This document shows positions 2,585 to 35,764 of a stretch of DNA of 35,764 nt, piece by piece; the stretch's first letter is position 1, and every line of letters starts with the position of its first letter. The notes under the pieces were generated by a model. The model made no database searches and was not told the DNA's origin. It saw nothing but the letters and a program-made list of their open reading frames with translations. Source of the stretch: a virus. Location of the stretch: the IMG/VR virus record IMGVR_UViG_3300005532_000155, positions 1-35,764 of that record. One strand, given 5' to 3'. The translations under genes were made by a program, and so were the position numbers.

Positions 2585-2917
2585 ATGGACCCAGAGATGG
2601 CTGAAGACCTGAAACTACTATCCACAGTCGCCGCAAAAGTCAGCGAGAAGACGGCGCGACGAATCCGGGCCATAGGGCTGGCCACCGGACTGAGCGACGG
2701 CCAGGTGGCGCGGCTGATCCTGGACCGCGCGATGGAACTGTTTGAGCACTGGGACCCGAGCATCAACCCTCGCTATTTCCTCAGCAAAATCCAAATCAGC
2801 GAGCAACAGCTTAACCTCTTTTCTCTTCACCGCGAAGGTTTTGAACGTTTAGAACGTTTAGCCGGTTCATGCGAGGAAACAAAAGACCAGACAAGGGACG
2901 ATTACAGGGATGAATGA
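2585..2917 (+). CDS. Ribbon-helix-helix-like small protein
   Basis: The product has 110 residues. Its first half (roughly residues 18-50, with SEKTARRIRAIGLATGLSD then a long helix) looks like a ribbon-helix-helix or other small dimeric DNA-binding fold, and the C-terminus is acidic. The 3' end overlaps the transposase start by 8 bp, which suggests translational coupling. The GGGGG upstream of ATG 2585 is a weak ribosome site. It could modulate early transcription or assist transposase loading, but this is inference from position. Confidence 0.6.
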   Translation: MDPEMAEDLKLLSTVAAKVSEKTARRIRAIGLATGLSDGQVARLILDRAMELFEHWDPSINPRYFLSKIQISEQQLNLFSLHREGFERLERLAGSCEETKDQTRDDYRDE

Positions 2918-4907
2918 TTGGATTTCAGTAGAAGAGGTTGCGGAGTACGAGCGGATCAGCACGAAGCAGGTGCGGCGCCGGTGCAGAATGGGCGCGCAGC
3001 CGGCGCTGGTTGCGAGGTACGAGGAGCGCAAGTCCGGTTGTCCGGTTCTGAGGATCGACCCGCGGTCGATGACATTCGAGGCGCAGCAGCGGTATCGCGA
3101 GGCCATGCTTCGCCGGATCGCCAGCGAAGCAGACCATGCCAAAGAGGAGAAGCCGCCGGCCAGCCAGGCGCTTTTTCCGGAGACTCCGCTTGACCAGGCG
3201 GTGTGCGCTGCGCGCGCGGAGCTTCCGCCGAGCCAGTTCAGCGTGGCAATGCAGCGGTTCAAAATCATCCAGCCGCTCGTGAACCACGACTTTATGGCGG
3301 TGTCATTCGACCAGACGGGATTCGCGCGGAAGATGGATTACAGCATGGCCATGGCGCGCGCGGCGGGAGTGAGCTACAGGAGCATACGCAGGTGGCGGCA
3401 TGAATTTGAGGAAGTACTAAAATCCGCCGGTCCCAAGGAAGCCTTCATCGCCTTGGCAGACGAGCGGCCGGGGCCGGAGCGCGGAGCGAGGACGCTCGAC
3501 GCGTCCATGAAGGCATTCATCCTGGACTGCTGGATCAACAGAAAGCTGAGCCGAAGGCAGACGTACAAGGCGCTCTGCCAGTACCTCGAAGAAAAGCAGC
3601 GCGGGTGCGGGGCGCGCTGGGCCTACGAGATACCGAGCGAGTCCACGGTGCTCCGCTTTATCAACGCGCCCGAGCCGTACGGTCTGGGCGGCGATGACAA
3701 CCCGCTGCGGGGCGGACCTGAAGCTATTAAAGAAGCCTGCGGCTACATCGACCAGTTCTACGACCACGAGCAGGCTGGTGACGCCTGGATCATCGACGAG
3801 AAAGAGATCGACGGGGTCTTTTACAACCCGGCCCGGCACCGTGAAATCTTCTGGTCAATCTACGTGGTCAGTGTGATTGACGAGCGCACGACGAAGATTC
3901 TGGGATGGAAGCTCGCCTACCGCCTGAACGCCGACACCGTCCTCGACCTGCTGGAAGAAACCCTGCGCAGCTATTTCCTTCCGAAATTCCTTGTCAGCGA
4001 CCGCGGCGGCCACTTCCGCGGCAAGGTTCTGCGCCGCACGACAGTGAGATCGCGCGGTGCGCTGATTGACCGGGCGATCGGTGCGATGGATTTCTTCGGC
4101 GTCGAGGCGCGCCAACCCCGCGACAAGAACCCGCGGGCCAGCCGGATCGAACGGATTCACCGGATTTATTCCGATCTCGCGCAGCGCGACTTCGGCCCAT
4201 CCTGGCGCGGGCGCAACGTGGAAGAGCGGAAGATGACCGGCATTGACGAGCGCGCCGAGCGGCACCTGCGCGAGCACTGCAAGGAAGGCACGAGCGGCCC
4301 GCTATTGCTTTCAACCGCAGACGCCGAGCGGCTGATCGCGCGGTGGGTCGAGGAAATCAACCTTGCAGAAACCGACGCCAAGGGATGCGCGGGGATGAGC
4401 CGTCAGGCGGCCTTTGAAGCCTTCAAGCCGAGCGCAGAAGAGATTGCGCGCCGGCGCGTGACGCAGGCACAGATTGATGAGGCGTTCGCAGAGCGCGATG
4501 AGCGGGTGATCCGTACCGGCGGCATCATCGAGGCCGCTGACGGCCTGCGCTACAGCTCGCCGGAACTAATCGGGCGTGCAGGGGAGAAGGTGACATTTGC
4601 CAGGCTGCGCCGCGACCGGACCAGGATTTACGTCGAGATCGATGGCCGGGTGGTGGTTGCCACGCACCGCGTGCCGGCGCCGAAAGGTGACGCCGCGGCC
4701 GCAGCGCGCGAGGCGGAAAAGCTGGCGAAGATACAGCGGCTCTACACGCGGCTCGGCGGCGTCCCCACCTTGGAGAACGCACCTGAGCACGAGACGCCAG
4801 AGCGGGAAGAACCGAAATCTGTTGCGGCCTCGGTCGAGGTGGCTGAGGCGATTCCCGCCGTGCCGGAGCCGGCCGAAAGGCTTATCGGGTTTGCTGACCT
4901 GGAGTAG
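2910..4907 (+). CDS. A: MuA-like DDE transposase
   Basis: The 665-residue product matches the Mu A transposase plan and length (663 in Mu). An N-terminal winged-HTH of the Mu DNA-binding type (ISVEEVAEYERISTKQVRRR) is followed by further DNA-binding helices. The catalytic RNase H-fold core comes next, with D296 (WIIDEKEID), D364 (LVSDRGGHFRG) and E414 (ASRIERIHRIY), spaced 68 and 50 residues. A beta-barrel-like Mu-type C-terminal region ends in a charged tail. The enzyme should cut and join the prophage ends for replicative transposition, acting on the terminal motif arrays with the ATPase encoded downstream. Start ATG 2910 is coupled to the upstream gene, with an AGGG just before it. Confidence 0.93.
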   Translation: MNDWISVEEVAEYERISTKQVRRRCRMGAQPALVARYEERKSGCPVLRIDPRSMTFEAQQRYREAMLRRIASEADHAKEEKPPASQALFPETPLDQAVCAARAELPPSQFSVAMQRFKIIQPLVNHDFMAVSFDQTGFARKMDYSMAMARAAGVSYRSIRRWRHEFEEVLKSAGPKEAFIALADERPGPERGARTLDASMKAFILDCWINRKLSRRQTYKALCQYLEEKQRGCGARWAYEIPSESTVLRFINAPEPYGLGGDDNPLRGGPEAIKEACGYIDQFYDHEQAGDAWIIDEKEIDGVFYNPARHREIFWSIYVVSVIDERTTKILGWKLAYRLNADTVLDLLEETLRSYFLPKFLVSDRGGHFRGKVLRRTTVRSRGALIDRAIGAMDFFGVEARQPRDKNPRASRIERIHRIYSDLAQRDFGPSWRGRNVEERKMTGIDERAERHLREHCKEGTSGPLLLSTADAERLIARWVEEINLAETDAKGCAGMSRQAAFEAFKPSAEEIARRRVTQAQIDEAFAERDERVIRTGGIIEAADGLRYSSPELIGRAGEKVTFARLRRDRTRIYVEIDGRVVVATHRVPAPKGDAAAAAREAEKLAKIQRLYTRLGGVPTLENAPEHETPEREEPKSVAASVEVAEAIPAVPEPAERLIGFADLE

Positions 4908-4910
4908 GCA

Positions 4911-5321
4911 ATGAAGGACCTGACAAGGCGACTGCGGGCAGCGCCGCTGGAAGCGGCGACAGAGATGATACGCCGCTCGTGCTTTCCACGCGCCGAGCTG
5001 GAGCAGCTTTACAGGTCGCTTCTCCACGACGAGGAGAAGGCGGCGCTGCGCAGCGTGATCGCCATGTGGCTCCACGGCAGACGGCCAGAACCGCAGCCGG
5101 CGTGGCTGGCGGCGCTGGCGAACGGCGACCGGCAGCTGGCGATCCATGCGGTGATCAACGCCGGGATGAGCGACTCCGAGCTTCAGAGATTCGACCGGCT
5201 CGTGAAACTGCAGCCGGATGGGCATCTGGTGAGGCAACTGCGGGCTGCAATCGAGCTGGAACAAAAAAGGAGGGAAATCGGTGGCAAGCGTGGCTCCAGA
5301 AATCGTATCACGCGGCGCTGA
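4911..5321 (+). CDS. Hypothetical protein between transposase and ATPase
   Basis: A 136-residue, predicted all-helical protein starting 3 bp after the transposase stop. Its C-terminus is strongly basic (KRREIGGKRGSRNRITRR), suggesting nucleic-acid binding. The last 41 bp overlap the start of the MuB-like gene, so the two are probably translationally coupled. No family is recognised. By position it may be an accessory factor for transposition. Confidence 0.65.
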   Translation: MKDLTRRLRAAPLEAATEMIRRSCFPRAELEQLYRSLLHDEEKAALRSVIAMWLHGRRPEPQPAWLAALANGDRQLAIHAVINAGMSDSELQRFDRLVKLQPDGHLVRQLRAAIELEQKRREIGGKRGSRNRITRR

Positions 5322-6042
5322 GGGCGGCGTCGTTGTCAACTCGGTTGTGAAAAATCTCACGACCCTGGCGAGGAAGGCTTACCAGGGCAGGTGCATAGTC
5401 GCGTACTCCAGCAGGACGGGGGTCGGGAAATCGCGCGCGGTGGACTACCTGGCCGCGACGCTGATGTATCCGCACCGGATCGTCAGATGCAAGCAGACAA
5501 CGTCTCTCGTGTCGCTGGTGCGGTCCATCGCGCTTGACGAGGACTTTAAGGTCACAAAGTCCCACCACGCGATCCCCAATACTGCGGCGCTTTACGAGCG
5601 CGCGGTAGAGCGCGCCAGGAGCTCGCCCTACCTGCTGGTGATCGACGAGGCGGACCGGCTGAAGGCCAACTGCTTCGAGATGGTGCGAGACCTGTGGGAC
5701 GATGCGCGGATTGGCATCCTGCTGGTCGGAAACGAAATCCTGGAAGCGATCATCAACGAGCGGCACGAGCGCCTCAGCCGGCGGATTCGCGTGCGGTACG
5801 TCCAGCCGGAACTGAAGCGCGACGCGCTGCGCGAGGTGCTCGAAGCGATGGGCTTCGAATTCACCGACGAAGAGTTGTCGCTGATCTACGAGAAGGCAGG
5901 CGGCTCGCCGGGCTGGGCGGAATCCCTCTTGAACACGCGCAACGACATTGCCGAGTCGCACGGAAAGAAGCCTGACATCGAGTTCCTGCGCGGCGCCCTG
6001 CAATACTTCCCGACGCTCGCGCAGAAGGGGAGGAAGCAATGA
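5281..6042 (+). CDS. B: MuB-like AAA+ ATPase, transposition target protein
   Basis: The 253-residue ATPase has a Walker A motif SRTGVGKS (residues 44-51), a Walker B LLVIDEAD (118-125), a sensor-like LLVGNE, and an arginine-rich HERLSRRIR stretch likely to contain the arginine finger. MuB proteins bind DNA as ATP-dependent filaments, select targets, protect the element from self-insertion and stimulate MuA. It is the second large gene of the transposition operon, as in Mu. The GTG start at 5281 is supported by AGGAGG (5268-5273). It is shorter than Mu B (312 residues) because a clear N-terminal HTH extension is missing, as in many MuB/IstB relatives. Confidence 0.88.
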   Translation: MASVAPEIVSRGAEGGVVVNSVVKNLTTLARKAYQGRCIVAYSSRTGVGKSRAVDYLAATLMYPHRIVRCKQTTSLVSLVRSIALDEDFKVTKSHHAIPNTAALYERAVERARSSPYLLVIDEADRLKANCFEMVRDLWDDARIGILLVGNEILEAIINERHERLSRRIRVRYVQPELKRDALREVLEAMGFEFTDEELSLIYEKAGGSPGWAESLLNTRNDIAESHGKKPDIEFLRGALQYFPTLAQKGRKQ

Positions 6043-6128
6043 TCGAGAAATCGTGGGCGAACGGCGTGAAGGAAATCCTCTCGCGGCCGGCGAGGAAGGA
6101 AGGAAGCAAAAAGTCATGGAGCAAGTAG
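6039..6128 (+). CDS. Very small basic protein
   Basis: A 29-residue basic ORF begins with an ATGA overlap with the ATPase stop and has GGGGAGG just upstream. It overlaps the next gene by 13 bp. The overlapping chain and ribosome site suggest it is translated, possibly mainly as a coupling leader. No function can be assigned. Confidence 0.35.
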   Translation: MIEKSWANGVKEILSRPARKEGSKKSWSK

Positions 6129-6409
6129 CCGACACGATCACCAGCCTGAACGACGATCTGCTGAACGCTGTGATTGAAGATGTGTGCAACCGCGACGACG
6201 ACGCGGCGATCCAGCTGCTCAGGAACTGCCCGATGGGAATGACGCGCATCATCGGTGGCATCTTCGAGCGGCTGCAGAAAGGCAAGAAGCTCGCGGACGT
6301 GGCGATGGCGGTATCCGTGGCCTTTGAGATCGGATGGCGCGCCTGCGAAGCGGTCCGCGAGTGCCAGGCGCTCGAAAGGATGAATCATGAAAATCCTCAT
6401 TGTAGATGA
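6116..6409 (+). CDS. Hypothetical early protein
   Basis: The product has 97 residues from ATG 6116, downstream of a GGAAGGAAG ribosome-site region; the frame is open to 5948 but that would overlap the ATPase. It is predicted helical, with an acidic N-terminal half and a moderately hydrophobic helix near residues 60-80. It overlaps the receiver-domain gene by 23 bp, so the two are probably co-translated. No family is recognised. Confidence 0.55.
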   Translation: MEQVADTITSLNDDLLNAVIEDVCNRDDDAAIQLLRNCPMGMTRIIGGIFERLQKGKKLADVAMAVSVAFEIGWRACEAVRECQALERMNHENPHCR

Positions 6410-6893
6410 CGATCAGTCGCTGCGGGAGACGCTGGCGCACCTGCTGCGCAACGAAGGCGACATCGAGACGCTCGAAGCCGGCTCACTCGACGAGGCGCGC
6501 GAGCTGCTGCCGGAAGCCGACGCGGTGCTGAGCGACGGGAGCTTCCCGACGCATCCAGGCCGCTTCGACGTGCTGACGGTCCACGATTCGAACTGGGCGC
6601 CGCTGCGCATGGACTGCGAGAAGGCCAGGATTCCATTTGTGCTTTTGAGCGGGAATGAGGTGCTGGTTGAGCGCCTGCGCGAGGCGGGCGGCGAGGCCTT
6701 CGCCAAGCCCCAGGGAGCCGTTGCAGCCGTGCGGCGGGTCTGTGTGCTGGCGAGGATTCACGCGGACGAGGCGGTGAGGCCGGAAGACCCCAGGGTCCAG
6801 CTTGCTGATATCAGAAATTCCCAGGGCGATGTCCTGGACGCCGAGGAGCGCGACACGGTTGCGCGATCCTGGTGGAAAACGTTCAGGAGGTGA
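6387..6893 (+). CDS. Stand-alone response-regulator receiver (CheY-like) protein
   Basis: The 168-residue protein opens with MKILIVDDD and has every residue of a phosphorylatable receiver: acidic pocket D7/D8/D9, phospho-acceptor D50 (VLSDGS), the switch Thr/Ser position S88 (FVLLSG) and K107-P108 (AFAKP). About 20 extra residues lie between the D50 loop and the next strand (PTHPGRFDVLTVHD). A charged tail of about 45 residues follows, with no recognised output domain. It sits inside the overlapping early operon, with AAGGA before ATG 6387, so it is a phage gene and not host flank. No histidine kinase is encoded in the window. It could intercept host phosphorelays or sense host state, which is inference. 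Confidence 0.8.
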   Translation: MKILIVDDDQSLRETLAHLLRNEGDIETLEAGSLDEARELLPEADAVLSDGSFPTHPGRFDVLTVHDSNWAPLRMDCEKARIPFVLLSGNEVLVERLREAGGEAFAKPQGAVAAVRRVCVLARIHADEAVRPEDPRVQLADIRNSQGDVLDAEERDTVARSWWKTFRR

Positions 6894-6896
6894 TGT

Positions 6897-7034
6897 ATGG
6901 CATGGCTCGGTTTCTTGCTTGGACTCTGGACCGGGGCGATCTTCACGGCGCTGGCTATCGCAATCTGCCAGTCCGCTAAGGAGGCCGACGAGGCCATCGA
7001 ACGGGAGGCTGTCCGTGGAAGCGATCCTCTGTGA
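6897..7034 (+). CDS. Small membrane protein
   Basis: A 45-residue ORF with a strong AGGAGGTGA ribosome site. Residues 2-24 are a hydrophobic helix (WLGFLLGLWTGAIFTALAIA) and the C-terminal tail is acidic then polar. It overlaps the next gene by 20 bp. It is probably an inner-membrane peptide of unknown role. Confidence 0.55.
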   Translation: MAWLGFLLGLWTGAIFTALAIAICQSAKEADEAIEREAVRGSDPL

Positions 7035-7317: not shown

Positions 7318-7539
7318 ATGAAGACATGGCAGGAGGCAATGGAGGAAATCGCTCAGGCGATGGACCGGGAAGCTGCTCCGGACGCGATACCGCTGGGCGA
7401 AGCGGTATTCTGCGCCGATTGCGACGTGATATCGCGGCGTACGCCGACCATGCGGTGCCTGGTGTGCGGCAGCGAGGCGACGCTTGACCTTGCGAAGGTA
7501 CTCAACCGCGAAGAGAAGGAGGTTGGAAGCAGGCTATGA
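7318..7539 (+). CDS. Small zinc-ribbon protein
   Basis: The 73-residue product has an acidic helical N-terminus and then a zinc ribbon with C32, C35, C47 and C50 (FCADC and RCLVCG). ATG 7318 follows GGAGGGCTGAG. Its stop overlaps the Gam start as ATGA, indicating coupled translation. The role is unknown; a transcription or replication accessory is possible. Confidence 0.6.
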   Translation: MKTWQEAMEEIAQAMDREAAPDAIPLGEAVFCADCDVISRRTPTMRCLVCGSEATLDLAKVLNREEKEVGSRL

Positions 7540-8039
7540 AAAACCAAGAAATCCATTCCTGGGAAGAGGCCGACCGCGCCATGGAGGCTCTCGCGAAGGT
7601 TTCCATCACACGGCGCGCAACGCAGGCGGAAATCGACGCCGAAATCGCCTCTGTGCACGAGACCTATCGCGGCAGGCTCAGCCGGCTGGAAGAAGAAATC
7701 GAAAGTCTCGAGGCCGCCCTGGCGAAGTTTGCGAAGAAGCGGAAGAGCGAATTCAAGCCGGACTCTGAAGGCGGCCGCAGCCATGAGCACGCGGGGGTGG
7801 TTCTCGGCTTCCGGCTGACGCCGCCCGCCGTGCGGATCGAGAACGAGCCGCGGGCGATTGACTTCCTCTCGCGTTTCGAGGGCGGAGTTTATCTCCGCGT
7901 GAAGGCGGAGCCAGACCGGCAGGCGCTGGCGGAAGCGCTGAAGGACGATTCCAGTCCGATCGTCGAAAAGCTCGCGGCGCACGGAATCACGCTGCAGCAG
8001 AAGGACAAGTTCTTTATCGAGGTGAAGGAGGTGAGATGA
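7536..8039 (+). CDS. gam: Gam-like host-nuclease inhibitor
   Basis: The 167-residue product resembles the Mu Gam family (174 residues in Mu): an N-terminal helix with SWEEADRAMEALAKV, a coiled coil at about residues 25-72, and an alpha/beta C-terminal part. Mu Gam is related to Ku and binds double-stranded DNA ends, protecting them from host RecBCD-type exonucleases. Its place after A and B and before the other middle genes is the usual one. ATG 7536 overlaps the preceding stop, with GAAGGAGG upstream. Confidence 0.85.
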   Translation: MKNQEIHSWEEADRAMEALAKVSITRRATQAEIDAEIASVHETYRGRLSRLEEEIESLEAALAKFAKKRKSEFKPDSEGGRSHEHAGVVLGFRLTPPAVRIENEPRAIDFLSRFEGGVYLRVKAEPDRQALAEALKDDSSPIVEKLAAHGITLQQKDKFFIEVKEVR

Positions 8040-10020: not shown

Positions 10021-10414
10021 CGACAGTCTCGCCCAGCGCTGTCGACGGTTGTTCAAAGCGCTGTTTCCGGCGCTCAAGGAGCGGGCGAGGCTCGATGGTT
10101 ACGCTCTGCTCTGGCACGGAAGCCTGGCCCGCGACATCGATCTTGTCGCTTGCCCGTGGACCGAGGCGTGCGTTGACCAGGCGGATCTCGCCGAGCATCT
10201 CCGAAAAGTGGCAGAGGCTGTCACAGGCTGCTGTTTCGCGGCCCCGCACGACAACGTGCCCGTAAAAAAGCCGCACGGCCGGCTGGCTTGGGAGTTTCAT
10301 TTCGGCGGCGGACCGTATATCGATCTATCGGTGATGCCGGTGGCTAGAAGTGACAAGCAGTCATTCAAGATCATCTTGCCGAGGCCGTCCGCCGGCGAAA
10401 CGGAGGAAGGATGA
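10007..10414 (+). CDS. Nucleotidyltransferase-fold protein
   Basis: The 135-residue protein contains the core signature of DNA-polymerase-beta-type nucleotidyltransferases: HGSLARDIDLVACP with G38-S39 and D43-x-D45, and a third acidic strand residue D106 in YIDLSV. This would give a minimal one-domain nucleotidyltransferase that could move NMP onto a protein or RNA, or an inactive relative. It overlaps the GemA-like gene by 14 bp and the next small ORF by 4 bp. The substrate is unknown. Confidence 0.6.
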   Translation: MNRNDDSLAQRCRRLFKALFPALKERARLDGYALLWHGSLARDIDLVACPWTEACVDQADLAEHLRKVAEAVTGCCFAAPHDNVPVKKPHGRLAWEFHFGGGPYIDLSVMPVARSDKQSFKIILPRPSAGETEEG

Positions 10415-10488
10415 GAAAAAGGGAACAGCCCGAAGGCCGAAACGAAGAAAACATGCGGCCTGCCGCTGTGTGGAGGATTGCACGATGA
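10411..10488 (+). CDS. Short basic leader-like ORF
   Basis: A 25-residue ORF with a canonical GGAGGAAGG immediately before its ATG. It overlaps the nucleotidyltransferase-like gene by 4 bp at its start and the HNH gene by 4 bp at its end, so it links the two in a coupled chain. It may be only a translational bridge. Confidence 0.3.
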   Translation: MRKREQPEGRNEENMRPAAVWRIAR

Positions 10489-11021
10489 TGCCAGGGGAAG
10501 TGACAAGATTCAAAAAAGGGCATGTGCCATGGAACGCAGGCCGACGTATGCCGGGCTACCAGCGCGGGCGCATGGCCGAAACGCAGTTCAAGAAGGGGCA
10601 ACGGCCGCACACATGGCTGCCCGTGGGGACCATCGTCAGGGACCGCAACGGCTACCTGAAGATGAAGGTCCGCGACGATCCGCAGGAGATCGCTGGCGTC
10701 GGCTCAAGTTCGACGAACTGGATGTACGTTCATCGGATGGTGTGGGAGTCTGCGCACGGGCCTGTTCCGCCGGGACATAAAGTCTGCTTCAGGGACGGGA
10801 ACAAGGACAACTGCCAGCTTGAAAACCTTGTCCTGGTCAGCGACGCGCAGCGGATGAGGGCGAATTCAATCCACCGCCTGCCGCCGGAGCTTGAGCAGGT
10901 GATCCATCTTCAAGGGGCTTTGAAACGAAGGATAAGGAGGCTTGAACGTGGCAAGGAACCACTGCGAGGACCTGCGGAACCATCTGTTCGAAACACTGGA
11001 ACGGCTGAAGGACAAAGATGA
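10485..11021 (+). CDS. HNH homing-type endonuclease
   Basis: ATG 10485 is chosen for the GGAGG at 10472-10476; the frame runs further upstream over the preceding ORFs. The 178-residue product has an N-terminal NUMOD-like basic motif repeated twice (RFKKGHVPWNAG and QFKKGQRPHTW). A beta-beta-alpha-metal HNH nuclease motif follows at about residues 80-117 (YVHRMVWESAHG, GHKVCFRDGNKDNCQLENL). HNH genes at this place are common in Mu-like siphophages. The usual second His of the H-H/N pair is replaced around KVCFRDGN, so activity needs checking. Confidence 0.8.
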   Translation: MMPGEVTRFKKGHVPWNAGRRMPGYQRGRMAETQFKKGQRPHTWLPVGTIVRDRNGYLKMKVRDDPQEIAGVGSSSTNWMYVHRMVWESAHGPVPPGHKVCFRDGNKDNCQLENLVLVSDAQRMRANSIHRLPPELEQVIHLQGALKRRIRRLERGKEPLRGPAEPSVRNTGTAEGQR

Positions 11022-15289: not shown

Positions 15290-16586
15290 CGCTCGGATGA
15301 AGATCGTGGTGAAGGGACGGCAAACCGGATACAGCTTTGCGGCAACGCTGCGCGCTGTCCTCAACTGCCTGGAGCGCCGGCTGACCTGGATTTTCCTCTC
15401 GAAGGGCGAGAGGCAATCCCGGCTGCTGATGGAAAAGGTGGCGGACCACGCGCGCGCAATCGGAGCAGCGCTGGAATTTCACGACTCGGAATTTATGGAA
15501 GGGACTCTGATCAAGCAGCTTGAAGCGCGGTTCCCGAACGGCTCGGTGATCTACGGGCTGCCCGCCAACCCTGACACGGCGCGCGGCTACACGGGCAATG
15601 TGACGCTGGACGAATTTGCGTTTCACCAGGATGCCGCGAAGGTTTATTCCGCGCTGTTCCCGACCATCACGCGCGGCTTCGGGATCGAAATTATCTCGAC
15701 TCCGGCGGGCCAGCAGGGCAAGTACTTCGAAATTGCGAAGAGCGCCGGGCTGGTGGACGGCTACCCGCGCGAGGCAGGATCGCCATGGAGCGCGCACCGT
15801 GTGGACATCTTCGAGGCCGTGCGCCAGGGCCTGGCGGAGCAGGCGGGGATGAGCGGCGATCAGATGATCGCCCAGCTGCGCGCCGGCTGCGAGGACGAAG
15901 AAGCGTGGCTGCAGGAATACTGCTGCCAGTTCCTCTCTGATGCGGCGAACTACATCCCGATGGAGATGATTTTCAGCTGCGTCAGCGAGCAGGCCTCGAC
16001 CGAATGGCCGATTGAAGATCTGCGCGGCAAGGAGTGGTATCTCGGGATTGACATCGGGCGGAAGCGCGACCTGACGATTGCCTGGGCGTTTGAGAAGCTC
16101 GGCGACACGCTCTGGAGCCGCAAGCTGCTGGCGATGTCACGCGTGCCGTTTGAAGAGCAGGAAAAGGCGATTGCCGATATGCTGGAAGCCGGACCGCGGC
16201 GCTGCTCGATTGATCAGTCGGGGCTTGGCATGATGCTTGCCGAGCGCCTGGCGCGGCGCTACCCGATGGTCGAGCCGGTGCAGTTTACGGCGCAGGTGAA
16301 AGAGCGCCTGGCGCCGCTGGTGAAGGCAGCGTTTGAGAATCGCACGGTGCGCATTCCCGACAACCGCGAGATTCGCGGAGACATCAATGCTGTCAAGCGG
16401 TTTGTGACGCCCGCGGGAAACATCCGCTTTGACGCTGAGCACACGGACAAGGGGCACGCGGACCGCTTCTGGGCGCTGGCGCTCGCGCTCGATGCGGCCT
16501 CGCAGCCGGCGCACCACATGACCGACGCTTTCCTGGCCGGCGAGCCGCGCGCAGCGGAATTTGAGCTTGAGCCGATGGCGATCTGA
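15177..16586 (+). CDS. terL: Terminase large subunit (Mu gp28-like)
   Basis: The 469-residue motor has a Walker A variant (KGRQTGYS, residues 46-53) and a Walker B LDEFAF (D145, E146). A C-terminal RNase H-like nuclease carries D292 (GIDIGRKRDL), D346 (CSIDQS) and D429 (GHADRFWA). It cuts and pumps DNA into the prohead. The TTG at 15177 has GGAGGAA 5-6 nt upstream and is used here, giving an unusually long overlap with the small subunit. A GTG near 15249, at VKLLPYQ, is an alternative that would still keep the whole ATPase domain. Confidence 0.9.
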   Translation: MNTQKTRARLSRESAKSTASLAGAVKLLPYQLAWINDDARMKIVVKGRQTGYSFAATLRAVLNCLERRLTWIFLSKGERQSRLLMEKVADHARAIGAALEFHDSEFMEGTLIKQLEARFPNGSVIYGLPANPDTARGYTGNVTLDEFAFHQDAAKVYSALFPTITRGFGIEIISTPAGQQGKYFEIAKSAGLVDGYPREAGSPWSAHRVDIFEAVRQGLAEQAGMSGDQMIAQLRAGCEDEEAWLQEYCCQFLSDAANYIPMEMIFSCVSEQASTEWPIEDLRGKEWYLGIDIGRKRDLTIAWAFEKLGDTLWSRKLLAMSRVPFEEQEKAIADMLEAGPRRCSIDQSGLGMMLAERLARRYPMVEPVQFTAQVKERLAPLVKAAFENRTVRIPDNREIRGDINAVKRFVTPAGNIRFDAEHTDKGHADRFWALALALDAASQPAHHMTDAFLAGEPRAAEFELEPMAI

Positions 16587-19500
16587 TGGCCTGGAGAGAC
16601 ACAATCCGAAGGATGCTGCACGGAACGAACGGTACGGCGCTCGCCGAGCCTGACTTTGCCGAGCGCGGCGTAGACACCTCCGAATTTGTCGGGCCGGCGG
16701 GGATGCCGCAGAAGCCGGTCCCGAAGCCAAAGGAACAGGCGCAGACGAAGCTGGAAGTTGATGAGAGCGTGCAGGGGCTTCCGGGTACGGCAAACCTGGC
16801 GGGTTTTGTCCAGGACATCGGCGAATACGATTCAAAGCTGATCGGCCTGGGCGCGATCCGAATCTATCAGAAGATGCGCCGCAACGACCCGACCGTGGCG
16901 GCGCTTGAGCTTGCCCGCACGCTGCCGATCCGCGCCGCGGACTGGGACATCGTGCCGGGCATCGACCAGACGCAGCCTGGCTACGCGCTCGCGAAAGAAA
17001 TTGCGGACATGGCGCGGGAGAACTTCTTCGGCGGCCTTGAGCGCACCACCGCGGCAGGCGAAAAGCGGACACAGACATTCGAGAGCGTGATTGAGAACGC
17101 GCTGCTTTCGGTGCTCGGCTGCGCTGCGCACGAGGACATCTGGGAAGTCGATAAGGACAAGGGGCGCGTCAGGCTGGCGAGGCTCGCGCCGCGGCTGCCC
17201 GACACCTTCTATCAGTTCGTCACGGAACCGGACGGCGAGACGCTTTACGAGCTGATTCAGTTTGGTTATCGCGGCCCCGCCATCGAGCTGCTGCCCATCA
17301 AGGCCAGCAAGCTGGCGTACTTTGTGCTAAACCGCGAGGGCGCGAACTTCTACGGCCGCTCGATTTTCCGCCCGTGCTACACCCCCTGGTACTTCAAGCA
17401 GCACCTGATGAAGATCGAGGCGGTGGCCGTCGAACGCAACGGCCTGGGCATCCCAACGATTGAGCTTGGCCCGAACGCGAGCGACGACGACAAGCGCGCA
17501 GCCTGGGACTACGCTTCGAAGCTCTCGACGAACGAACGCTCCGCAATGGTGCTCCCGAACGGATTCACGTTCGCGCTGACCGGCATTAAGGGGCGCGTGC
17601 TTTCGGCCCGGGAGGCCATTCAATACTACGACCAGCAAATCCTGATCGCGGGGCTTTCCTCCTGGCTGCTGCTGGGCCAGACATCCACCGGAACGCGTGC
17701 GGTCGGCAGCGTGCAGAAGGATTTCTTCCTGCTGGCTGAGGAAGCGTTTGCGCAGATGGTCGCGGATACGATCACCACGACCAGCCTGCGCCGCCTGGTG
17801 GATTTCAATTATCGCGCCAAGCCCGGCGAGGTGCTGCCCTATCCGAAGCTGGTGTGCAGCGATATCCGCATGGTGGAGCTTGAAACCGTGCTCAACGCAG
17901 TGCGCGAACTCGCCGCGCAGGACGTGGACATGCTGCGGCCGACGCCGGAGCGAGACGACGCCGTCGCGGAGATGCTGGGTCTGCCGAAGCTCTCGAAGGG
18001 CGAGCGCGGACCGCGCCTTGCGCCCATTGTCACGCGGCAGAACCTGGCCAACGAAGTCGTGGAGGGAACCGGGGAGCACATCTCACCGGCAACGCCCAAG
18101 GGCGGCGAGAAGCGCACCGATGTGGTAGTGAAGGAAACCTCGAGCGACGGAAGCAAGCGGAAAGAGGACGTCAAACTTTCAGAGGGCGGACCTCACCCGA
18201 CGGTGTACTTCATCCGGCACGCGCACACGGCGCTGAACAAGGACACCGACCCGGCGGACGAGAAGCTGAAGGGTCAGACCGACGTGCCGCCGGACGCCGA
18301 GGGCCTCGAACAGGCCCGGCGCGACGCAGAACAGTTCCGCGGCAAGAAGGTCGACGATATCTTCACAAGCCCGCTGAGCCGCGCGCGGGCGCTGGCCGAT
18401 GCCATCGCCACGGTGACCGGAGCCGCCGTCCATGACGATCCCGACCTGCTGCCGTGGGATTACCACAAGCTGGTCGGCATGACGCGCAAGGCCGCAGAGC
18501 CGCTGCTTGACGAGGCGCGGGCCCATCCGGATTCTGACCTTGTCGGCGAACCCTATGCCGATTACCTCGAGCGGTGGAAGCGGGGCGTGCAGCACGCCAT
18601 CAGCCACGCAAAGGCCGAGGGCAGAAGCGTCGCGGTGGTTACGCACTCGCCCAACCTGAAGGACCTTGATTACGCGCTCGGGCGCGGCCCTGCGGGCGCC
18701 GACGAGGCCCCGGAAACTGGAGGCGTCGTGAGCGTGAGGCTTGATGACAGGGTCCCGGCCGACCCGACCATCGGCCACTGGGTGACGATTAACGGGAACC
18801 ACGTCTTTATTGACGAATCCGGCTCAGTGCTCAAGGGGCCTCGGGAACTCGTCGGCAAGAGGTTCGGTGATGAACCGATTGTAAGAGGAACGGCGGATGC
18901 TGTTGCGGACCGCCTGCGCGGGATGGGATACGACACCCGAGTGCAGCACTCCGGCAGCGCCTACGGTCCCAGCTCGTACGTCTATTTCAGGCGGGCGGAC
19001 CAGAAGGGCGTTGAATACTACGCCAGGATCAGCACGCACGACCACAACCCGCGCGGGATAGAAAACGGTGAAGTTGGCTCCTACCACCCTTATCACAACA
19101 CTGCGGAGGAGATCGCCAACGATGCGCACGCGACGGCGTCAAGGTATGAGGATGCGAAGGCGCGCGCCAGGACGAGGGCCGAGGCGGAGTCCATAAGAAG
19201 GTCGAGGCTGACTCCCGAGGAGCGGGCGCGCGAGGACAGAATGGGCCGCCAGCGGCAGTACATCCAGACGATCAAGAATCCTTCCAAGAGAGCTGCGGCG
19301 ATTCGAGATTTTGAAGCGCGGTGGGGAGAGAAATTTGCAGAGGGCGGCCAAACCCACCGCGACGCTGCATCGACCTGCGTAAGCTGTGTATCTCAGCAGC
19401 CGGAGCGCGTCGCTGCTGGCCATGTGCCTGAGGATAAGGCCGCCCGCATCGATGATACCGTTTTCCTCGCCGATGTCAAGAGGCCCCGGACGCTGCAGAG

Positions 19501-20359
19501 TCCGTTCTGGCGCGAGGGCCACGATCCGTCGCTTCGGCTGGTGCATCCGCACGAGATGCACGTCGACTTCCCCGCGCACCAGGCGAAGATGGACGCCGCC
19601 GAGCTGAAGGTGAAGCACATCCTGCTGCGCGCACGGCGCAAACTGCTGCGCGACGCTGCAGCGCGCGGCGCTGACATTCTACAGCGCGGAGCAAGCGTCA
19701 CAAGCCTTACCGTGGCTCCGCCCATTGAAGTGAAGCCTGAGATCGAGCCGCTGCTCGCTGCAATCTATCAATACGCGCGCGAGGAGTTCAGAAACGAGCA
19801 CAACCGCCTGGCGGCGTCCGCTCCGGTGGCGCTGGCTGAGGACAGCCGGCCGGCATCCGATCGGCCGGACCCCAGCCCGCTGCTGGCCGAGATCGCGCTC
19901 GACCGCTACGCGGGAGAGATCGCGAACGGGGTGCGGCGCGTGGTCAATAACATCCGCACCGGAGCCGTAACGATCGCGGATCTGCCGCGCAACCCGGATG
20001 GCAGCTACGATCTGACCGGCCTCAGCAAAAACGAGCTTGCGGACCTGATCTGGGAAGAGGCCCAGCAGCAGCAGTCGGGCATCCCGGCCATCAGTCCAAA
20101 CCTTGAGGACAATATCGCCGCCGGAGCGGTGCGCGACGCCTTCCGGCGCGGCCGCAGCCAGGAGGCGCAGCAGATCATTGAAGCGCTCGAGCGCGCCGGC
20201 GCGAAGGTGCAGATCATCCGGGTCGCGATGCTCGACAAGAACGTCTGCGGGCCGTGCGAAGCCGCCGACGGCAAGCCGTGGCCGCTCGACGTGCCCGTGA
20301 GCGTGATCTGCGAGGGCGGCGACCTGTGCCGCTGCGAACCCGTGGAAGTGAGGGACTGA
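16586..20359 (+). CDS. Portal - histidine phosphatase - MuF head protein fusion
   Basis: One uninterrupted 1257-residue frame. Residues about 60-480 are a DUF935/Mu gp29-type portal. Residues about 540-725 form a histidine-phosphatase (phosphoglycerate mutase-like) domain: RHAH with catalytic H545, SPLSRAR (595-601), and the second histidine in VVTHS (H687). A strand-rich segment GHWVTINGNHVFID (730-743) and a basic helical stretch follow. The C-terminal 270 residues resemble Mu F/gp30-type minor head proteins and end in a zinc-like cluster (CGPC at 1221-1224, CRC at 1248-1250). In Mu, portal and F are separate genes of about 500 and 430 residues. The product should form the portal ring at the capsid vertex. 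The phosphatase part could act on an ejected or encapsidated substrate, or be structural. The start overlaps the terminase stop (TGATG). Confidence 0.85.
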   Translation: MAWRDTIRRMLHGTNGTALAEPDFAERGVDTSEFVGPAGMPQKPVPKPKEQAQTKLEVDESVQGLPGTANLAGFVQDIGEYDSKLIGLGAIRIYQKMRRNDPTVAALELARTLPIRAADWDIVPGIDQTQPGYALAKEIADMARENFFGGLERTTAAGEKRTQTFESVIENALLSVLGCAAHEDIWEVDKDKGRVRLARLAPRLPDTFYQFVTEPDGETLYELIQFGYRGPAIELLPIKASKLAYFVLNREGANFYGRSIFRPCYTPWYFKQHLMKIEAVAVERNGLGIPTIELGPNASDDDKRAAWDYASKLSTNERSAMVLPNGFTFALTGIKGRVLSAREAIQYYDQQILIAGLSSWLLLGQTSTGTRAVGSVQKDFFLLAEEAFAQMVADTITTTSLRRLVDFNYRAKPGEVLPYPKLVCSDIRMVELETVLNAVRELAAQDVDMLRPTPERDDAVAEMLGLPKLSKGERGPRLAPIVTRQNLANEVVEGTGEHISPATPKGGEKRTDVVVKETSSDGSKRKEDVKLSEGGPHPTVYFIRHAHTALNKDTDPADEKLKGQTDVPPDAEGLEQARRDAEQFRGKKVDDIFTSPLSRARALADAIATVTGAAVHDDPDLLPWDYHKLVGMTRKAAEPLLDEARAHPDSDLVGEPYADYLERWKRGVQHAISHAKAEGRSVAVVTHSPNLKDLDYALGRGPAGADEAPETGGVVSVRLDDRVPADPTIGHWVTINGNHVFIDESGSVLKGPRELVGKRFGDEPIVRGTADAVADRLRGMGYDTRVQHSGSAYGPSSYVYFRRADQKGVEYYARISTHDHNPRGIENGEVGSYHPYHNTAEEIANDAHATASRYEDAKARARTRAEAESIRRSRLTPEERAREDRMGRQRQYIQTIKNPSKRAAAIRDFEARWGEKFAEGGQTHRDAASTCVSCVSQQPERVAAGHVPEDKAARIDDTVFLADVKRPRTLQSPFWREGHDPSLRLVHPHEMHVDFPAHQAKMDAAELKVKHILLRARRKLLRDAAARGADILQRGASVTSLTVAPPIEVKPEIEPLLAAIYQYAREEFRNEHNRLAASAPVALAEDSRPASDRPDPSPLLAEIALDRYAGEIANGVRRVVNNIRTGAVTIADLPRNPDGSYDLTGLSKNELADLIWEEAQQQQSGIPAISPNLEDNIAAGAVRDAFRRGRSQEAQQIIEALERAGAKVQIIRVAMLDKNVCGPCEAADGKPWPLDVPVSVICEGGDLCRCEPVEVRD
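18173..19347 (+). repeat. Imperfect direct repeat bounding the phosphatase cassette
   Basis: Bases 18173-18189 (AAACTTTCAGAGGGCGG) and 19331-19347 (AAATTTGCAGAGGGCGG) agree at 15 of 17 positions. Both lie in the same codon phase, encoding KLSEGG (from residue 530) and KFAEGG (from residue 916). The offset is 1158 bp, exactly 386 codons, so the segment between them can be gained or lost without a frameshift. It contains the phosphatase domain. Confidence 0.7.
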
Positions 20360-34628: not shown

Positions 34629-34733
34629 GCTCCGCACGGCGTGCTTTCGCCTCGGAGAGGAGTTGCGTCGGGCCACGTCGAGTGCGTGGAAGACATTCGC
34701 AGGTGCAGATGGTTGATACCACAGGAGGTGTGG

Positions 34734-35555
34734 ATGCTGAGAAGTCCGTTGGGATGGTTGGGCGGAAAATCAAAGCTGCGCGCGGAAATCATCAGCCGCA
34801 TCCCGCCGCATACGACCTACGTCGAAGTCTTTGGCTGCGCGGCCTGGGTGCTGTTCGGAAAGCCGCCTGAGACCTCAAAGGTGGAGGTGCTGAACGACCT
34901 GGATGGCGAGCTGATTAACTTCTGGCGGGTTCTGAAGCACCGCCCGGCCGAATTCGCCGAGGAAGCTGCGTCACTTGTGGCATCGGGCGAGCTTTGGCAG
35001 GGATGGCGCGCGCTGCCTGCACAGGGCAGCGAGGTCGAGCGGGCGATCCGCTTCTTGGCCGTCTTGAAACTCGGATTCGGGGCTAAACGGATTTCAACGG
35101 CTTTTGGCAGCCACCGACTGAGGCCTCCGAAACACGTCCACATAGCATCGCGCGCGGATTTCGGCAGGATCATAGCAAGGCTCCGCACGGTGTGGATTGA
35201 GCGCCTTGATTGGCGTCGCTGTATCGAAAAATACGACGCGAGCACGACGTTCTTTTACCTCGACCCGCCCTACCGCTGCCCAGGCGCTAAAGGCTACGCA
35301 TTCTCGTTCACGGACGAAGACCACCGGGCGCTCGCCGATGCCCTCCGCGGCGTCCGCGGCAAATGGATGCTGTCATATAACGACGATCCCTGGATCGCGA
35401 AGATTTACGAGCGTAGGGGATGGTACATTGAGAGGCTAAATTCGCTTTGGACTGTGAACGGCAGCGGTCCCCTCCGGACGCAGGAATTGTTGATCAGTAA
35501 TTTCAAACCGGCCACCGCGAAGCCGCATGAGGCTGCGTCCAAGCTCGGGCCGTGA
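34734..35555 (+). CDS. Dam-like DNA adenine-N6 methyltransferase
   Basis: ATG 34734 follows a perfect AGGAGGTG ribosome site; the frame is open to 34641 without support. The 273-residue enzyme has the D12/Dam order: LGGK (residues 9-12) and VEVFGCAAW (30-38) for SAM binding, NDLDGELINFW (54-64), and the catalytic DPPY (177-180). A C-terminal segment ends in RTQELLISNF. It methylates adenine in a short target and could shield phage DNA from restriction. It occupies the place of mom at the right end of Mu. The usual F-x-G-x-G of motif I is altered to FGCAA, so activity should be confirmed. Confidence 0.88.
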   Translation: MLRSPLGWLGGKSKLRAEIISRIPPHTTYVEVFGCAAWVLFGKPPETSKVEVLNDLDGELINFWRVLKHRPAEFAEEAASLVASGELWQGWRALPAQGSEVERAIRFLAVLKLGFGAKRISTAFGSHRLRPPKHVHIASRADFGRIIARLRTVWIERLDWRRCIEKYDASTTFFYLDPPYRCPGAKGYAFSFTDEDHRALADALRGVRGKWMLSYNDDPWIAKIYERRGWYIERLNSLWTVNGSGPLRTQELLISNFKPATAKPHEAASKLGP

Positions 35556-35595: not shown

Positions 35596-35683
35596 CTGGG
35601 ACCGCCGCCAGACATTTCGAGTCGCCAGTGCGCCTCTGCCGGGTATCCTCGGCGGCGCCCCGCAGCGGTGTCCCTTCCCACTG

Positions 35684-35764
35684 TAGTGGCCACGAATTAT
35701 GAAGATGCCACGCCAGTGGCCACGAATTCTGCAGGCGACTGGCCACGAATTCTGCACGCTCACA
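35684..35764 (-). repeat. Right-end transposase-binding-site array (R1-R3, inferred)
   Basis: Three copies of TGGCCACGAATT occur at 35687-35698, 35717-35728 and 35740-35751, in orientation opposite to the left-end copies. The outer two share TGGCCACGAATTCTGCA. Intervals are 30 and 23 bp, so the sites are contiguous or nearly so, as at the Mu right end. The likely terminus is CA at 35761-35762. A run of short repeats like this is also typical of IS21-family ends, which is the main alternative. Confidence 0.7.

Follow-up and report, generated by a model that had tools for sequence, protein, structure and literature searches.

Inhibition of the kinase CckA has been described for the single-domain regulator Osp (PMC9430884). 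DifD serves as a phosphate sink, and EpsW, once phosphorylated (EpsW~P), activates EpsZ, a phosphoglycosyl transferase (both PMC12802240). Among phage proteins, PIT4 binds to several kinases of the host (PMC10714779). Thus, such modes of action have precedents in bacteria, and binding of host kinases by a phage protein is known as well. A search of the open-access literature found no paper on phage-encoded response regulators, nor any description of transposable phages with a dedicated and conserved lineage of receivers. The locus analyzed here appears to represent such a lineage.

The window, i.e. the whole IMG/VR record of 35,764 bases, is apparently a complete Mu-like prophage of an acidobacterium, given the combination of Mu genes (MuA, MuB, Gam, Mu portal protein and Mu-like protease), Mu-type TG...CA ends (assigned by sequence) and a tRNA-Leu match. 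The tRNA-Leu (31-115) is identical in 16 Acidobacteriota/Terriglobia genome contigs, and the 12 of these contigs that could be placed to genomes all fall in one order (40 genomes). The phage DNA apparently extends from about position 126 (TGTGCATGGTTGGTGGCCA) to the last base (reverse complement TGTGAGCGTGCAGAATTCGTGGCCA), and GTGGCCA-type motifs are repeated at both phage ends, as expected for MuA-type ends. Across 1-126 and 35678-35764, the tRNA-Leu flank gives way to Mu-like TGTG ends, and on the right the record and the phage end together. Separately from the GTGGCCA repeats, a CACCTGGACAT-type motif occurs several times near the left end (231-466), in direct and inverted orientation; these may be transposase or repressor sites. 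The record also encodes an HNH endonuclease domain between the early genes and the endolysin (10350-11021; PF13392, E = 3e-16) and, near the right end, a D12-class adenine-specific DNA methyltransferase (34641-35555; PF02086, E = 1.4e-16).

In phage Mu, the stretch between MuB and Gam carries accessory, host-modulating early genes. The receiver gene of the window lies in the same interval:

2910-4907, + strand: MuA-like transposase (phrog_310, E = 5e-46)
5281-6042, + strand: MuB-like transposition ATPase (phrog_296, E = 1e-25)
6116-6409, + strand: small ORF upstream of the receiver, with a 32% identical homologue at the same place in prophage L065
6387-6893, + strand: receiver protein, a single-domain response regulator of 168 amino acids with an ATG start (ORF and profile matches)
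6897-7034, + strand: single-transmembrane mini-protein of 45 amino acids directly after the receiver, with one strongly hydrophobic stretch
7536-8039, + strand: Mu Gam-like protein (PF07352, E = 1.6e-19)

The initial annotation had placed the gene in an overlapping early operon, and the arrangement bears this out: the receiver start overlaps the upstream ORF by 23 nt, and only 3 nt separate its end from the ORF of the mini-protein, which has its own AGGAGGT ribosome-binding site.

All residues of the phosphorylation site that had been named in the initial annotation (D7 to D9, D50, S88 and K107) are found in the translation of the ORF. The features of the protein, with counts over the eight members of the family described below, are:

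6405-6413, + strand: acidic pocket D7-D8-D9; D8 in 7/8 members, Gly in L066
6534-6536, + strand: phospho-acceptor D50, followed by G51-x-F53; D50 and F53 invariant (8/8)
6549-6593, + strand: the 'extra loop', an insert of variable length between D50 and W70 (family alignment)
6594-6596, + strand: W70, an invariant Trp 18 residues N-terminal of the conserved Ser/Thr (family alignment)
6648-6650, + strand: S88, the receiver-pocket Ser/Thr, conserved in 8/8
6705-6710, + strand: K107-P108, invariant; the residue three before the Lys is Ala104, not the switch Tyr/Phe (family alignment)
6729-6890, + strand: C-terminal tail, residues 115-168, matched at full length only in the nearest relative, L065

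The Pfam receiver model PF00072 covers only residues 3-56, the N-terminal half of the protein (E = 3.2e-5), with a score below the cut-off (24.5 bits vs. a gathering threshold of 30.2), and the window protein as query had no match among solved structures (phmmer, E 0.001) or in 50,697 phage records. A profile of the eight family members aligns with the PhoB receiver structures over the whole domain (E = 1.6e-5), and hhalign against 10 ordinary receivers gives a probability of 99.2 over 113 columns. The profile match thus extends across the domain, and the acidic pair, phospho-Asp, Ser/Thr and Lys are all present in the window protein, supporting the prediction of a receiver fold. No further Pfam or NCBIfam domain is present in the 168 residues, the last 54 of which form the tail. 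On the evidence of these profile and residue matches, the window gene encodes a receiver-family protein with retained phospho-site residues.

The search for relatives, which started from a 34-35% match in genome G009, was extended with a two-sequence profile that retrieved L042 and L043 from IMG/VR and with a four-sequence profile that retrieved L063, L064, L065 and L066, from the same taxonomic order as the tRNA-Leu matches. Altogether, seven relatives were found (30-58% identical). The closest, L065, belongs to a closely related Mu-like prophage and is 55-59% identical over its length; this prophage shares MuA, MuB, Gam, several early and most late genes with the window, in the same order and on one strand. 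L042 and L043 belong to two further, more distant Mu-like phages, and the receiver occupies the MuB-Gam slot in all four (window, L065, L042 and L043). L041, L063 and L064 are short contigs with phage-type genes (endolysin or repressor relatives), in which the receiver is followed by a transmembrane protein and a zinc-finger-like ORF. The remaining relative, at 10010-10465 of L066 in an Acidobacteriota genome, is a diverged receiver that has lost one pocket acid and adjoins helicase-like and methylase-like ORFs. Extending the search to 399 genomes of the class, with at most nine candidates scored per genome, yielded only the same five genomes.

The suggestion that stand-alone receivers are unusual in phages holds: an ordinary receiver query matched 158 of the 50,697 phage records, of which many look like host fragments, and the present family matched none. 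A PF00072 search of the host genome G434 returned 55 receivers without the prophage receiver among them, so that the family is easily overlooked by annotation. The gene is not universal, given that a blastp search (E 0.01) of the fetched Mu-like loci of five Acidobacteriota genomes revealed no receiver relative. Gam-bearing Mu-like loci were detected in 5 of 396 Acidobacteriota genomes. Scans of IMG/VR with the window transposase and MuB found no close relatives, a terminase scan gave one partial contig, a transposase search across the phylum gave one match, and a second conserved early gene, when searched against IMG/VR, again retrieved only L042 and L043.

When compared with 35 receivers of one host genome, the family shows both strong retention and consistent departures. 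None of the eight members has lost the phospho-Asp, F53, W70, the Ser/Thr or the Lys-Pro (the position of the Trp, 18 residues before the Ser/Thr, was counted by hand in L066), at identities as low as about 30%. The extra loop that had been noted after D50 is real, with 38 residues from D50 to S88 in the window protein and 34-41 between the equivalent positions in the family vs. 27-32 in the host receivers. From the Ser/Thr to the Lys, by contrast, the distance is 19 residues in 8/8 members vs. 22 in 33/35 host receivers, and, in the alignment with PhoB, the three missing residues map to the Asp-Asp-Tyr that precedes the Lys. The residue three before the Lys, which corresponds to the switch Tyr106 of CheY, is Ala in 7/8 members and Val in one, compared to Tyr or Phe in 31/35 host receivers and Val in 4/35; the family thus lacks the aromatic residue of the canonical Thr-Tyr switch. 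The dN/dS ratio is about 0.22 for the window-L065 pair, with dS near saturation, and 0.14-0.29 for the other computable pairs, with high dS throughout and one pair saturated, indicating purifying selection. The alpha-1 helix, the usual kinase contact, varies among the members and indicates no single host kinase; an attempt to identify the target kinase by alpha-1 similarity gave inconsistent answers and was abandoned.

In six of the seven loci examined (window, L065, L041, L063, L064 and L043), a small single-transmembrane protein is encoded directly 3' of the receiver; at L042, no transmembrane protein adjoins the receiver. One type of this protein is shared by the window and L065, and the L043 protein matches the type found in L041, L063 and L064 (E = 1.5e-5, four-sequence set). 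The two types follow the receiver tree, in which the window receiver is sister to that of L065, and L043 falls in a group with L041, L063 and L064. Short transmembrane proteins are common in phage early regions; the joint occurrence and divergence at these loci suggest that the receiver and the transmembrane protein form a two-gene unit.

No histidine-kinase or HPt domain was detected by Pfam in 40 reading frames of the window, which comprise all but a few small ORFs, in line with the original proposal that the phage encodes no kinase. A histidine-phosphatase fold in the same prophage had been offered as a thematic link to the receiver. This domain (PF00300, E = 2e-22) spans residues 540-690 of a 1257-residue Mu-type portal/head protein (16586-20359) and sits in an extra segment of about 470 residues to which the portal proteins of related phages do not align; the 885-residue portal protein of a relative aligns only to residues 48-468 and 968-1256. 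In addition, the phages of the two IMG/VR receiver relatives lack the domain. The histidine phosphatase was therefore rejected as a signalling partner of the receiver, being part of a structural portal protein. Thus, the initial interpretation stands with respect to the stand-alone receiver, its complete site, its early operon and the lack of a kinase, and fails with respect to the phosphatase.

The reading that we favor, with confidence slightly short of even, is that the gene product is a single-domain response regulator, phosphorylatable and belonging to a phage-specific lineage, that acts on the host by competing for, draining or inhibiting a two-component pathway. Retention of the Asp, Ser/Thr and Lys speaks for phosphorylation coupled to a conformational response, and the absent Tyr/Phe together with the new Trp speak for an altered output surface. 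A host histidine kinase or phosphotransfer protein would very probably donate the phosphoryl group to the phage receiver or dock it; the donor is assigned to the host because the scan of the phage revealed no kinase, and the 55 PF00072 matches in G434 imply that the host should contain kinases to engage. Most likely, the receiver would then compete for, drain or inhibit the host pathway during takeover, perhaps being held at the membrane by the adjoining transmembrane protein. The early accessory position favors action on the host over feedback on the phage or a scaffolding role. Several observations weigh against this reading: L066 lacks one pocket acid, L042 lacks the adjoining transmembrane protein, and the alpha-1 helix, as noted above, singles out no host kinase. 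Moreover, with the switch Tyr/Phe missing and the stretch before the Lys three residues short, the response to phosphorylation may be altered or lost. A more specific proposal, which we put forward only tentatively, is that the re-engineered receiver and the small membrane protein constitute a two-gene module that links Mu-like phages of Acidobacteriota to host two-component signalling by way of a switch lacking the customary Tyr/Phe.

Alternatively, the receiver could be a sensor: phosphorylated by host kinases, it would control a phage product (the transmembrane mini-protein, the repressor or transposition) and so couple the choice between lysis and lysogeny to the state of the host. We regard this as possible, with a probability well short of even: the Ser/Thr and Lys required for a conformational switch are kept along with the Asp, the gene is tightly packed among phage early genes and the transmembrane gene co-diverges with it, but the protein has no output domain, the switch Tyr/Phe is missing, and the repressor is expected to silence the early operon, such that the receiver may be absent from the lysogen, in which the decision is made. 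The altered spacing and the missing switch residue in 8/8 members, along with the loss of a pocket acid in L066, could also be taken to indicate a phosphorylation-independent, pseudo-receiver-like binding scaffold; this appears unlikely because the Asp, Ser/Thr and Lys are invariant in 8/8 members despite about 30% identity, which a scaffold would not require. Recent capture of a host response regulator as a passenger gene is highly improbable: receivers abound in host genomes, but the eight members form one clade with 100/97 support and a long stem, apart from the 35 host receivers, and the gene occupies the same slot in divergent phages. The search of other Mu-like phages that had been proposed beforehand thus located the gene at the same place and points away from a recent host copy. 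Equally improbable is membership in the cRec family, a described phage-borne divergent receiver linked in jumbo phages to NAD+/ADP-ribose processing (PMC7824862), given that the eight members match Pfam only as PF00072 and one stray HAD at E-values up to 10 (which counts to the extent that this Pfam copy includes a cRec model), that no NAD or ADP-ribose gene was found among the neighboring frames scanned, and that the two-component Lys-Pro is retained.

If host kinases phosphorylate the receiver on which the favored reading centers, it would be a direct example of a virus that enters two-component signalling of bacteria with a switch of its own; on present evidence, the virus probably taps or disturbs host signalling through this protein. 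The odd switch geometry would provide a natural test of how receivers transmit signals without the usual aromatic residue. With cRec, the family shares a receiver-like domain in a phage; Pfam returned no cRec match, and no NAD+/ADP-ribose neighbors were seen. PIT4, an early protein of Pseudomonas phage LSL4, acts on the two-component signalling of its host, as is likewise proposed for the receiver, and has been shown to bind kinase domains (PMC10714779). The PhoB receiver (PDB 1zes, 1b00), the best match of the family profile among solved structures, belongs to a protein with a DNA-binding domain, which the family lacks; compared to PhoB, the family has an insert of about nine residues and three fewer residues around the Asp-Asp-Tyr before the Lys. 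The family also resembles single-domain response regulators such as CheY, Spo0F, DivK, EpsW and Osp, which likewise consist of nothing but a receiver, carry the phospho-Asp, acidic pair, Ser/Thr and Lys-Pro, have no output domain of a known type and depend on partners provided in trans. The family differs from all of these in being phage-encoded, in the longer post-Asp segment with its invariant Trp, in the shortened spacing (19 vs. 22), in the Ala or Val at the position of Tyr106 and in scoring below the Pfam cut-off.
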